From contig NZ_CP134876.1 of assembly GCF_032108445.1 (NCBI RefSeq), positions 1,054,001 through 1,118,000 on the forward strand: a stretch of DNA of 64,000 bases, given 5' to 3'. Origin of the DNA: Micromonospora halotolerans. Its GTDB lineage: Bacteria; Actinomycetota; Actinomycetes; Mycobacteriales; Micromonosporaceae. The position numbers were made by a program, and so were the translations under genes. Below the pieces are notes generated by a model. That model was given only the letters and a program-made list of their open reading frames with translations, had not been told where the DNA came from and ran no database searches. Shown piece after piece: positions 11,568-14,018 of this stretch (its first letter is position 1; every line of letters starts with the position of its first letter).

Positions 11568-13148
11568 TCAGACCCGGGCCCGGTCCAGGCCGTAGGTGAG
11601 GGCGTCGACCAGGGCGTGCCAGCTCGCCTCGACCACGTTGGGGTGGACGCCGACCGTGGTCCAGTCGCGGCCCGCCCCGGCGGTCTCCACGAGCACCCGG
11701 GTCACCGCGCCGGTGCCGTGGCTGCCCTCCAGGATGCGGACCTTGTAGTCGGCCAGCTCGAACTCCCGCAGCTCCGGGTAGTGCCGGGCGAGCGCCACCC
11801 GCAGCGCCTCGTCCAGGGCGTTGACCGGGCCGTTGCCCTCGGCGGTGGCGATGACGCGCTCGCCGCGTACCCGGATCTTCACGGTGGCCTCGGAGACCAC
11901 CGCGCCGTCCTCGCGGTGCTCGACCAGCACCCGGTAGGACTCCAGGGCGAAGGGCCGGGCCGGCGCGGCGTCCGGCAGCTCGGAGCGGACCAGCAGTTCG
12001 AAGGAGGCGTCGGCGGCCTCGAACGACCACCCGCCGGCCTCCAGTTCCTTGACCCGGCTGGTGACCCGGGACAGGGTCTCCGGATGGCCGGCCAGGTCCA
12101 GGCCCAGCTCGCGACTCTTGAGCTCGACGCTGGCCCGGCCGGCCATCTCGGTCACCAGGATCCGCATGTCGTTGCCCACCACCGAGGGATCCACGTGGTT
12201 GTAGAGCAACGGGTCCACCTTGATCGCGCTCGCGTGCAGCCCCGCCTTGTGGGCGAAGGCCGCGGCCCCGACGTAGGCCTGGTGGGTGTCGGGGGCGATG
12301 TTGGCGATCTCGGCGATGGCGTGCGAGACCCGCACCATCTGTTCCAGGCAGCCCTCCGGTAGGACGGGCATGCCGAGCTTGAGCTGGAGGTTGGCCACGA
12401 TCGCGAAGAGATCGGCGTTGCCCGGGCGCTCGCCGTACCCGTTCGCGGTGCCCTGCACATGCCGGATGCCGGCCTCGACCGCCGCGATCGTGTTGGCCAC
12501 GGCGCAGGCGGTGTCGTTCTGGGCGTGCATGCCGAGCAGTTCCGGGGCGATCCCGGTCCGCGCGGTCAGGTCGGTGATCGCGGCGGTGACCTGGGAGGGC
12601 AGCATCCCGCCGTTGGTGTCGCAGAGGACGAACCGCTCGGCACCGGCGGCGAGCGCGGTCTCCGCCACCGCGGCCGTGTACGCGGGGTCCTGCCGGTAGC
12701 CGTCGTAGAAGTGCTCCCCGTCGACGAAGACCCGCCGGCCCTGCGCCACCAGGTACGCGACCGTGTCCCGGACCATCGCGAGGTTCTCCTCGGCGGTGGT
12801 GCGCAGGGCCCGCTCGACGTGCCGCAGGTCCGCCTTGGCCACCAGGGCCACGGCCGGGGTCGCCGCGTCGAGCAGCCCGCGCACCTGCGGGTCGTCCTCG
12901 ACCGCGACGCCCGCCTTCCGGGTGGCCCCGAACGCGACCAGGATCGCGTGCCGCAACTCCAGCTCGGTGCGGGCGCGGCGGAAGAACTCGGTGTCCTTCG
13001 GCACGGCGCCCGGCCAGCCGCCCTCGATGAAGCCGACCCCGAGGTCGTCGAGCAGGCGGGCCACCGCCAGCTTGTCGACCACCGAGTAGGTGAGCCCCTC
13101 GCGCTGGGCGCCGTCGCGCAGCGTCGTGTCGTACACCTGGAAGGTCAT
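11568..13148 (-). CDS. cimA: (R)-citramalate synthase
   Basis: 526 aa from ATG 13148. The N-terminal TIM barrel begins with DTTLRDGAQREG and carries the HxN-type metal motif GMHAQNDTACAVAN and the NGYGERPGNAD segment. A C-terminal regulatory domain (last about 130 residues) resembles that of LeuA/CimA. It condenses acetyl-CoA and pyruvate to citramalate, giving 2-oxobutyrate for isoleucine without threonine deaminase. The length and the sequence around HKAGLHASAIKVDPLLYNHVD fit the CimA branch rather than LeuA, whose usual length is 550-600. The gene is preceded by a leader peptide and terminator and so is probably controlled by attenuation. Confidence 0.93.
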   Translation of the reverse strand: MTFQVYDTTLRDGAQREGLTYSVVDKLAVARLLDDLGVGFIEGGWPGAVPKDTEFFRRARTELELRHAILVAFGATRKAGVAVEDDPQVRGLLDAATPAVALVAKADLRHVERALRTTAEENLAMVRDTVAYLVAQGRRVFVDGEHFYDGYRQDPAYTAAVAETALAAGAERFVLCDTNGGMLPSQVTAAITDLTARTGIAPELLGMHAQNDTACAVANTIAAVEAGIRHVQGTANGYGERPGNADLFAIVANLQLKLGMPVLPEGCLEQMVRVSHAIAEIANIAPDTHQAYVGAAAFAHKAGLHASAIKVDPLLYNHVDPSVVGNDMRILVTEMAGRASVELKSRELGLDLAGHPETLSRVTSRVKELEAGGWSFEAADASFELLVRSELPDAAPARPFALESYRVLVEHREDGAVVSEATVKIRVRGERVIATAEGNGPVNALDEALRVALARHYPELREFELADYKVRILEGSHGTGAVTRVLVETAGAGRDWTTVGVHPNVVEASWHALVDALTYGLDRARV

Positions 13149-13185
13149 GGGAGTCCTCTTCTCGAACCTGCGGGGAGCAACAAAA

Positions 13186-13211
13186 AGACCCCCCGCGGAT
13201 GCGGGAGGTCT
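13186..13211 (-). terminator. cimA attenuator: intrinsic terminator in the leader
   Basis: On the minus strand the stem AGACC-(1 mismatch)-CCCGC pairs across a 4-base loop and is followed at once by TTTTTGTTG, a classic Rho-independent terminator. It lies 37 bp upstream of the cimA ATG, between the leader peptide and the gene, so it can only act as an attenuator for cimA. Confidence 0.88.
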
Positions 13212-13242
13212 GCGCGCTCGGCGAGGGGGAAGGCCGGCGCGC
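13212..13242 (-). promoter_or_regulatory. cimA leader hairpin abutting the leader-peptide stop
   Basis: GCGCGCCGGC (minus strand, starting at the G of the leader TAG) pairs with GCCG-A-GCGCGC, a 10-bp stem with one bulged base. It sits directly between the leader stop and the attenuator terminator. Its position suggests the pause or protector stem of a leader-peptide attenuator, but the alternative antiterminator pairing was not worked out. Confidence 0.7.
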
Positions 13243-13274
13243 TAGCTGCCAATAATCAGGACGGAGCTGGTCAC
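13242..13274 (-). CDS. cimA leader peptide VTSSVLIIGS
   Basis: A 10-codon frame GTG...TAG ending 94 bp upstream of cimA. It contains V-L-I-I, with both isoleucines written ATT, a codon rarely used in this very GC-rich genome. This is the pattern expected of a branched-chain amino acid attenuation leader, in which ribosome stalling on scarce Val, Leu or Ile tRNA releases the downstream terminator. An in-frame GTG at 13322 would extend it to 26 residues; the C-terminal sensing part is unchanged. The ribosome site is weak. Confidence 0.8.
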   Translation of the reverse strand: MTSSVLIIGS

Positions 13275-13418
13275 GGTCCGTACTCTGCCACTCCGATCCG
13301 GCTTGTGGGAGGAGAAACCCACATCGCGGGACGGGTCCGTGATCGACTTAACAAGCCGCCCTGCCCAGGGTCCGGCGGTGACCGGGCTGCGGAAGTATCT
13401 GGAACAGATCCAGTTACC

Positions 13419-13440
13419 GGCCTGGCGTCGTCGCCAGGCC
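13419..13440 (+). promoter_or_regulatory. hairpin in the ahpC 5' leader
   Basis: A perfect 9-bp stem GGCCTGGCG/CGCCAGGCC with TCGT loop ends 6 bp before the AAGGAGGAC ribosome site of ahpC. Its location favours an effect on ahpC mRNA stability or translation. No OxyR-type box could be identified with confidence upstream. Confidence 0.55.
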
Positions 13441-13457
13441 GCCGTCAAGGAGGACCC

Positions 13458-14018
13458 GTGCTCACTGTCGGTGACCACTTCCCCGAGTACGAACTCACCG
13501 CGTGCGTCTCGCTCGACGCCGACAAGGCGTTCGAGACGATCAACCACAAGACCTACGAGGGCAAGTGGCGCGTCGTCTTCTTCTGGCCGAAGGACTTCAC
13601 CTTCATCTGCCCGACGGAGATCGCCGAGTTCGGCCGCCTCAACGGCGAGTTCGCCGACCGGGACGCCCAGGTTCTCGGCGTCTCCGTGGACAACGAGTTC
13701 GTGCACTACGCCTGGCGCAAGGACCACCCGGACCTGCGCGACCTGCCCTTCCCGATGCTCAGCGACATCAAGCGTGAGCTGACCGCCGACTGCGGCGTGC
13801 TCGGCGAGGACGGCGTCGCCCAGCGGGCCACCTTCATCGTCGACCCGGACAACGAGATCCAGTTCGCCATGGTGACCGCCGGCTCGGTCGGCCGGAACGT
13901 CTCCGAGGTGCTGCGGGTGCTCGACGCCCTGCAGACCGACGAGCTCTGCCCGTGCAACTGGAACAAGGGCGGCGCCACCCTGGACGCCAACGCGCTGCTC
14001 GCCGGTGCCGGGGCCTGA
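13458..14018 (+). CDS. ahpC: alkyl hydroperoxide reductase subunit C (peroxiredoxin)
   Basis: 186 aa from GTG 13458, chosen for the near-ideal AAGGAGGAC 4-5 bp upstream. Typical 2-Cys peroxiredoxin: the peroxidatic cysteine is Cys51 in FTFICPTE, and the resolving cysteine lies in LCPCNW near residue 164. It reduces hydrogen peroxide, organic hydroperoxides and peroxynitrite in the cytoplasm. AhpD, encoded 2 bp downstream, is its reductant partner in actinobacteria instead of AhpF. It is divergent from the cimA leader. Confidence 0.96.
   Translation: MLTVGDHFPEYELTACVSLDADKAFETINHKTYEGKWRVVFFWPKDFTFICPTEIAEFGRLNGEFADRDAQVLGVSVDNEFVHYAWRKDHPDLRDLPFPMLSDIKRELTADCGVLGEDGVAQRATFIVDPDNEIQFAMVTAGSVGRNVSEVLRVLDALQTDELCPCNWNKGGATLDANALLAGAGA

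Follow-up and report, generated by a model that had tools for sequence, protein, structure and literature searches.

The window analyzed here is a stretch of 64,000 nucleotides from the genome of Micromonospora halotolerans (contig NZ_CP134876.1), and the features described below are read from its minus strand (Table 1). A preliminary description of this DNA had placed a leader peptide with its stop codon, a 10-bp hairpin starting at that codon and a directly following terminator 37 bp ahead of a cimA gene. Each of these elements was recovered by direct reading, and the identity of the downstream gene as cimA was confirmed by its family score. The leader codons GTG ACC AGC TCC GTC CTG ATT ATT GGC AGC TAG run from the start codon at 13274-13272 to the stop codon at 13244-13242, with the isoleucine codons at 13256-13254 and 13253-13251. 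The hairpin, here called P1, begins on the G of TAG (13242) and contains 6 + 4 bp around one bulged A. A single base separates it from the terminator; this A13211 is paired with the first U of the U-run in the terminator prediction, so that the predicted stem-loop, outer A-U pair included, extends from 13211 to 13186 and carries TTTTTGTTG. The U-run starts at 13186, 38 positions upstream of the cimA ATG (13148). Leader, P1 and terminator together span 13274-13178 ahead of cimA. The next gene upstream of the leader lies on the plus strand and encodes, to judge from its translation, a peroxiredoxin-like protein. Since this neighbor is divergent, the terminator serves no visible gene upstream on the minus strand.

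Table 1. Features of the cimA leader region and of related leaders; positions refer to the window.
Feature	Position	Strand	Evidence
Operator-like inverted repeat TGTGGG-N8-CCCACA, over the expected -35 region	13304..13323	-	Sequence; motif recurrence
Extended -10-like motif TGGCAGAGT, 7 nt before the leader start codon	13282..13290	-	Positional conservation in 154 loci
Leader peptide ORF GTG...TAG, VTSSVLIIGS (10 codons)	13242..13274	-	Sequence, conservation, shuffles
Tandem Ile codons ATT ATT, proposed sensor	13251..13256	-	Ile in 154/154 leaders; ATT enriched
Hairpin P1 (GCGCGCCGGC ... GCCG-A-GCGCGC), proposed antiterminator	13212..13242	-	RNAalifold, covariation, computed foldability
One-base linker A, joint of P1 and terminator	13211..13211	-	Gap of 1 nt in 142/154
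Intrinsic terminator GACCTCCCGC-ATCC-GCGGGGGGTC + U-run	13182..13210	-	Terminator prediction; covariation
cimA, citramalate synthase	11568..13148	-	TIGR00977, 606 bits (cut-off 450)
ilvB leader MSSNRSLRVLT* (Val-Leu codons), P1 on TGA, one-base gap, terminator	27203-27117	-	Sequence, R1
Leaders ending A/V-I-T, both hairpins, before threonine ammonia-lyase-like genes (loci L265, L274, L275, L276)			Sole R1 match

Taken by itself, the window sequence is weak evidence for a regulatory element. The single-sequence fold has a z-score of -1.89, with 11 of 200 shuffles equally stable, and the two terminator-like sites observed compare with 0.8 (sd 0.8) in 5-kb shuffles. A cmscan of window positions 12900-13700 against Rfam 15 returned nothing at gathering score and two sub-threshold matches, neither of them a T-box. 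It is the comparison across species that settles the reality of the element.

The same comparison points to a promoter in front of the leader. Across 154 loci an extended -10-like consensus, TGgCAnAnT, stands at the distance given in Table 1, with conservation of 0.61 at T-16, 0.70 at G-15, 0.81 at G-14, 0.63 at A-12 and 0.65 at T-8; the values for A-12 and T-8 are partly selected because, among several possible start codons, the one following an A...T hexamer was preferred. As the start codon follows this motif so closely, the leader RNA probably begins at the start codon itself, as a leaderless transcript. Other leaders in S. lividans have been mapped as leaderless transcripts, according to the part of PMC8079986 consulted. 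The inverted repeat further upstream is perfect in the window and holds a fixed place before the leader. A related repeat occurs in 63 of the 154 loci (46 of 50 in the genus, none in class-level rows), and in 56 of these 63 it lies at -49/-48 of the leader start; the expectation from shuffles is 3.5. Compared by eye, it has no likeness to the NdgR ChIP-seq motif as displayed in the excerpt of PMC4340878. The distance from the end of the terminator to the beginning of the CimA match is no more than 40 nt in 23 of the 154 loci, so that a promoter of its own for cimA would hardly fit between the two.

Conservation and covariation of the element

To collect the corresponding loci, the cimA protein was searched in 61 genomes, all of which matched (a few weakly), in 250 genomes of the family (247 matched) and in 118 of the class (92 matched); upstream stretches were read for part of the 250 family genomes. 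This gave 176 stretches, the window's own included as L001. The gene start could not be located in L106 and L113, leaving 174, and by eye both of these loci contain a leader with isoleucine, P1 and terminator. At L113, the CimA match behind these elements is a fragment only (residues 348-522). A parser allowing gaps of 0-3 nt between P1 and terminator identified both hairpins in 157 stretches, and leader ORFs had to terminate at or within P1; L086, L149 and L150 were removed by eye, and the P1 partner was set by hand in L136, L140 and L141. The element is accordingly present before cimA in 154 of 174 relatives, namely in 50 of 50 loci from the genus, 41 of 44 from the family, 15 of 20 from other families of the order and 48 of 60 from elsewhere in the class, with related rows counted many times. 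The 20 loci missing it are L077, L081, L085-L087, L114-L116, L144, L149, L150, L152, L166, L173, L178, L185, L189, L190, L192 and L195. The three misses within the family (L114-L116) are second CimA-like copies, 53-58% identical, in three genomes.

A covariance model applied to 80 named loci gave a full match before cimA in 48, among them Micromonospora matsumotoense, 15 of 16 Streptomyces rows, Nonomuraea, Amycolatopsis, Kutzneria, Kribbella and Cellulomonas. No match with this model was obtained for the other 32 named loci, which include the Acidimicrobi-, Ilumatobacter- and Coriobacteriia rows, the non-actinobacterial rows and several actinomycetes. A phylum-wide search with an exact pattern matched in 17 of 296 genomes, and beyond the window, G012 and G376 the matched stretches that were read look like chance.

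RNAalifold on 72 sequences returned P1 and the terminator only, and recovered the outer 6 bp of P1 without being supplied with them; pairings of the 5' part of the leader could not appear because the alignment starts 9 nt before P1. Eight of the 16 pairs changed on both sides, and in the terminator six of ten consensus pairs did so. In sequence, the outer pairs of either hairpin hardly vary. Pairing was preserved in 98.3% of cells, compared to 94.6% in shuffles and 42-58% when the structure was slid by 1-3 columns. Changes on both sides affected 50 cells against 10.8 in shuffles (0 of 500 as high), and none of the 500 shuffles reached any of five covariation measures, with the reservation that the structure was derived from the same alignment of related rows, which favors it somewhat in these controls. 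In folding without pseudoknots, the conserved part of the cimA element is accounted for by two plain hairpins plus a terminator.

The joint between the two hairpins is constant compared with the size of P1. With gaps of 0-3 nt searched, P1 and terminator lie 1 nt apart in 142 loci, 0 nt in seven and 2 nt in five, and the length of P1 varies between 22 and 76 nt (median 30). A constant joint combined with a variable hairpin size suggests that foot-to-foot contact is what matters. Two further pairings were considered and dropped. One, in which the bases ahead of the stop codon pair with GTTG past the U-run to form a closing helix, appears in the minimum-energy fold; judged by eye it fits many rows of the same genus, but not distant ones, and it would form only after the decision to terminate. 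Extension of P1 into the terminator is interrupted, in the window as in most rows inspected, by an A-A mismatch at the position that follows. Within one family of large genomes, probably Streptomyces (f18; L157, L160, L165, L182, L285-L286, L288-L291, L295), the loop of P1 is long and may be structured in its own right, and the stop codon of the leader falls within P1.

Isoleucine codons and ribosome spacing

An ORF ending at or in P1 is present in all 154 elements, compared to 25.5 when the upstream 80 nt were shuffled. Every one of these leaders contains isoleucine (shuffles: 9.2), and 139 contain at least two (shuffles: 2.3; 138 under the A...T-guided choice of start). The frame is the only open one in 148 loci; for positional counts in the six loci with two open frames we took the one containing isoleucine. 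Leaders are 6 to 22 codons long, isoleucine accounts for 21-23% of their residues at each level (genus, family, order and class), and the residues preceding the isoleucine run vary (V-L, A-R, V-V, S-T, C). Codon choice is equally distinctive. In 80 loci, ATT accounts for 127 of 160 isoleucine codons in leaders but for 33 of 1245 in the cimA genes (Fisher odds ratio 141, p 2.6e-116, a value not to be taken literally since the genomes are related).

The leader therefore reads as a sensor of isoleucine rather than of valine, leucine and isoleucine jointly, since isoleucine occurs in all 154 leaders and valine and leucine codons are not conserved. The preliminary description had proposed a branched-chain attenuator that ties cimA to the supply of all three amino acids, and had suggested aligning the upstream regions of relatives. 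The attenuator part of this proposal is supported: much of the class retains the leader, the hairpin and the terminator ahead of cimA, and the alignment contains conserved isoleucine codons, covarying stems and the terminator. Its remark that both leader isoleucines use a codon rare in this genome is borne out by the ATT counts. The valine and leucine part does not hold, because isoleucine alone is conserved.

The position of these codons is consistent with control by a ribosome, which covers about 12 nt counted from where its A-site codon begins. From the first isoleucine codon of the run to the first paired base of P1 there are 11-14 nt in 147 of 154 loci and 14 nt in 96, so that a ribosome awaiting isoleucine tRNA would halt just short of P1. 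The leader stop codon coincides with the P1 base or stands no more than 4 nt from it in 128 loci, and lies in the 5' half of P1 in 25; a ribosome that has finished the leader would therefore cover the 5' arm. Loci such as L088, L092, L104 and L147 have no stop codon at the P1 base, and their ORF continues through the 5' arm.

We then computed how these ribosome positions bear on the RNA fold. With the ribosome at the first isoleucine codon, the basal helix of P1 pairs with a mean probability of 0.89 (146 of 154 loci exceed 0.5). For a ribosome at the stop codon the value is 0, as follows from occlusion of the 5' arm, and in the naked leader it is 0.95 (148 of 154). Pairing of the terminator 5' arm with upstream RNA has a mean of 0.023 and a median of 0.001 when the ribosome stands at the first isoleucine codon, and exceeds 0.5 in none of the 154 loci. 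Hence, in folding without pseudoknots, the RNA left free under a stalled ribosome contains no antiterminator pairing with the terminator 5' arm. In the naked leader this arm does pair upstream (mean 0.27, above 0.5 in 12 of 154), and a role for the 5' part of the leader is for that reason still conceivable. Because P1 and terminator share no bases and can coexist, secondary-structure energies alone give no switch.

The same scaffold before other genes

A covariance model, R1, was built from 72 cimA elements. Since the window sequence is among them, the R1 score on the window's cimA element is not independent; the R1 matches on leaders of ilvB, leuS, leuA and threonine ammonia-lyase genes are independent of model building. 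One of these lies in the window, at the ilvB leader (27177-27110, 28.2 bits, E 1.1e-7). Overall, R1 matched 74 of 98 class genomes (E up to 0.01) and 57 of 198 phylum genomes (E up to 1e-4). Nineteen extra matches, read from 20 fetched regions (L284 was not used), stand before leuS (10), ilvB (4), leuA (1) and threonine ammonia-lyase-like genes (4). Gene names were assigned from translations, and six proteins, four of them from these 19 loci, were checked against NCBIfam; two threonine ammonia-lyase-like proteins scored 283 and 278 bits, below the curated cut-off of 379.

The codons in these leaders suit the gene that follows. Leaders such as MRTRILVVMQRAG (ilvB), MRTGLLLTGPR (leuS), MSQNLLLT (leuA) and MTVHEMAIT (threonine ammonia-lyase-like) contain, respectively, runs of leucine and valine, mostly L-L-L, L-L-L, and A/V-I-T. 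The leuS leaders are very similar to MRAVRLLLSEPR, the leader published for leuS of S. lividans (PMC8079986). The geometry is largely retained: of 52 non-cimA elements parsed with gaps of -2 to 4 nt, 44 have a gap of 0-2 nt, six overlap by 1-2 nt, and one each has a gap of 3 and 4 nt. In one of the 52 (L218), a locus in which no leader could be identified, pairing of the terminator arm with upstream RNA exceeds 0.5. Two ilvB loci could not be parsed, L220 and the window's own (L196), the latter being recognizable by sequence and R1. In four genomes of one family (G617, G632, G646, G659) the sole R1 match precedes a threonine ammonia-lyase-like gene, and on reading the cimA upstream stretches of G617 and G632 (L173, L195) the element was found to be absent. 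R1 also matched before an isocitrate-lyase-like and an isochorismatase-like gene (L297, L292; named from translation only), possible further users of the scaffold. A weak second match occurs in the window's own genome (G000:C1:4404444-4404516, plus strand, 20.9 bits, E 0.005).

Proposed mechanism, alternatives and related systems

As a whole, the element is best explained as an isoleucine-responsive, ribosome-mediated attenuator of cimA, and we regard this assignment as likely. Codons that fit the pathway lie in a translatable leader ORF, an intrinsic terminator stands between leader and gene, and the computed state of the upstream hairpin follows the position of the ribosome. The antiterminator and terminator of textbook attenuators exclude each other by pairing, which, with a stalled ribosome and folding without pseudoknots, was seen in none of the 154 elements, compared to six of six E. 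coli leaders. This mutually exclusive subtype is not strictly needed for the broader mechanism of attenuation. Ribosome-mediated attenuation by isoleucine as such is very likely, and P1 is probably the antiterminator.

In the mechanism we propose, cimA would respond to charged isoleucine tRNA through a ribosome that begins to translate the leader as the leader RNA emerges. With enough isoleucine, this ribosome would reach the stop codon at the base, in the 5' arm or in the loop of P1 and mask the P1 5' arm; with P1 blocked, the terminator would fold and transcription would end before cimA. When isoleucine is short, the ribosome would wait at the ATT codons with its front edge just short of P1, P1 would fold, and RNA polymerase would continue into cimA. 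For the last step we offer, tentatively and with some doubt, a steric explanation. A folded P1 one base from the terminator foot would be kept out of the RNA exit channel, and the last base pairs of the terminator could not close deep in this channel because P1 could not follow. If so, folding of P1 in the absence of a ribosome would make read-through the default, the reverse of the E. coli type. Two points count against the proposal: the hairpins can coexist energetically, and in S. coelicolor ilvB a change of possible regulatory codons was without effect, in an experiment cited in the portion of PMC1262725 that we consulted.

The main competitor to steric blocking is an antiterminator that does use terminator bases, either in the manner of a pseudoknot, with the P1 loop pairing to the terminator 3' arm, or through a short exchange at the boundary. 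Genus members have a P1 loop rich in C that offers a complementary run of at least 6 in 46 of 50 loci (mean 7.7, against 6.8 for shuffled loops), and in the family 24 of 41 loci do so (6.1 against 5.3). Precedents exist in Corynebacterium, where ilvB-II has been modeled with a P1-loop antiterminator (PMC10272879) and the adjacent ilvBNC hairpins of C. glutamicum have three bases in common (PMC11857589), both according to partial texts. The complementarity fades with distance: order rows reach 5.1 against 5.0 in shuffles, hardly above, and class rows 4.55 against 4.53, with a run of at least 6 in 10 of 47, and the element is kept nevertheless. The 1-nt gap in 142 of 154 loci means that P1 and terminator share no base, and the folding without pseudoknots cited above found none of the upstream pairing by the terminator 5' arm that all six E. 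coli leaders have. We therefore did not adopt loop pairing as the general switch and judge this explanation rather unlikely, although its feasibility in the genus and part of the family made us slightly less confident of the steric model than before.

It is improbable that P1 acts as a pause or roadblock hairpin, keeping ribosome and polymerase in step while the choice is made otherwise. Such hairpins belong to classical attenuators, and P1 forms in the naked leader as well, but RNAalifold found no structure besides P1 and the terminator in its alignment from 9 nt before P1, and the distance to the terminator stays fixed whatever the size of P1, which argues that P1 acts on the terminator. A protein- or ligand-binding RNA with an incidental short ORF, comparable to the proposed LEU element of leuA, would account for the almost invariant outer pairs of both hairpins. 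It would not account for a reading frame, isoleucine codons and ATT bias that persist while the rest of the peptide varies, nor for the same scaffold bearing other codons before other genes, and no Rfam family reached gathering score at the cimA locus; we consider this reading very improbable. The modest single-sequence statistics would even agree with an ordinary terminator and a chance ORF, but given the divergent upstream neighbor, which leaves the terminator no gene to serve on the minus strand, together with conservation, covariation and shuffle controls, we can practically eliminate this explanation.

Within the attenuator reading, the E. coli trpL, leuL, hisL, thrL, pheL and ilvL leaders are related to the cimA elements by the principle that ribosome position decides the RNA fold. 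They differ in that their antiterminators use the terminator 5' arm, which pairs upstream before the 3' arm is made (best value per leader 0.71-1.00, late ilvL codons being lower). Other related systems come from actinobacteria. The C. glutamicum ilvBNC attenuator and the Corynebacterium ilvB-II motif also combine a leader peptide, branched-chain codons and foot-to-foot hairpins (PMC11857589, PMC10272879), and the ilvBNC leader peptide starts one nucleotide from the transcript start (PMC11857589). In this "fast" attenuator the exchange of a three-base overlap is held by its authors to be the switch, a third, anti-antiterminator hairpin is present, and a 1-nt spacer is held to block the exchange partly (PMC11857589). 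The hairpins of the cimA elements share no bases; with gaps of 0-3 nt searched, the spacers run from 0 to 2 nt, and the 1-nt spacer is their rule. Leader peptides with fitting codons are further known in the same phylum from predicted leuS attenuators, ilvB leaders and the LEU element (PMC1262725). The consulted part of that paper notes only leader and terminator for actinobacterial ilvB, does not report cimA, and describes the LEU element of leuA as a pseudoknot with its base stem at the Shine-Dalgarno sequence.

Among the matches listed in our search of the open-licence literature, we found no attenuator reported either for cimA or for a threonine dehydratase from actinobacteria. Compared with these papers, the new points are a probable attenuator of cimA, the proposed sensing of isoleucine alone and a putative antiterminator that abuts the terminator instead of overlapping it. 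Leaders of ilvB and leuS were known already; their shared non-overlapping geometry we did not find described in the texts consulted, C. glutamicum being the nearest case. It is conceivable, if somewhat doubtful, that actinobacteria employ a modular attenuator chassis whose sensor codons are exchanged from gene to gene (Ile-Ile for cimA, Ile-Thr for threonine ammonia-lyase, Leu/Val for ilvB, Leu-Leu-Leu for leuA and leuS) and whose antiterminator, one base away and sharing no base with the terminator, blocks its closure in RNA polymerase. The non-overlapping geometry in any case raises a sharp mechanistic question. For cimA, such an attenuator would give the citramalate (pyruvate) route to isoleucine a feedback switch matched to its end product, in genera that include producers of antibiotics and amino acids, and a covariance model for this widespread element is now at hand.

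The mycobacterial ilvB1NC leader provides an experimental precedent for the ribosome logic proposed here, which is also that of known attenuators. It is likewise a short leader with branched-chain codons (LVVI) in which a ribosome at the stop codon blocks the antiterminator ahead of an intrinsic terminator. Unlike the cimA element, it controls ilvB and senses leucine, valine and isoleucine. It was examined by codon replacement and with a reporter, and replacement of LVVI by AAAA in the ilvB1 leader removed induction (PMC13236596). The same text calls the ilvB1NC structures mutually exclusive. Among our own loci, an ilvB leader of family f8 that begins MLVVIGQRVG (L217) has the layout of P1, 1-nt gap and terminator.
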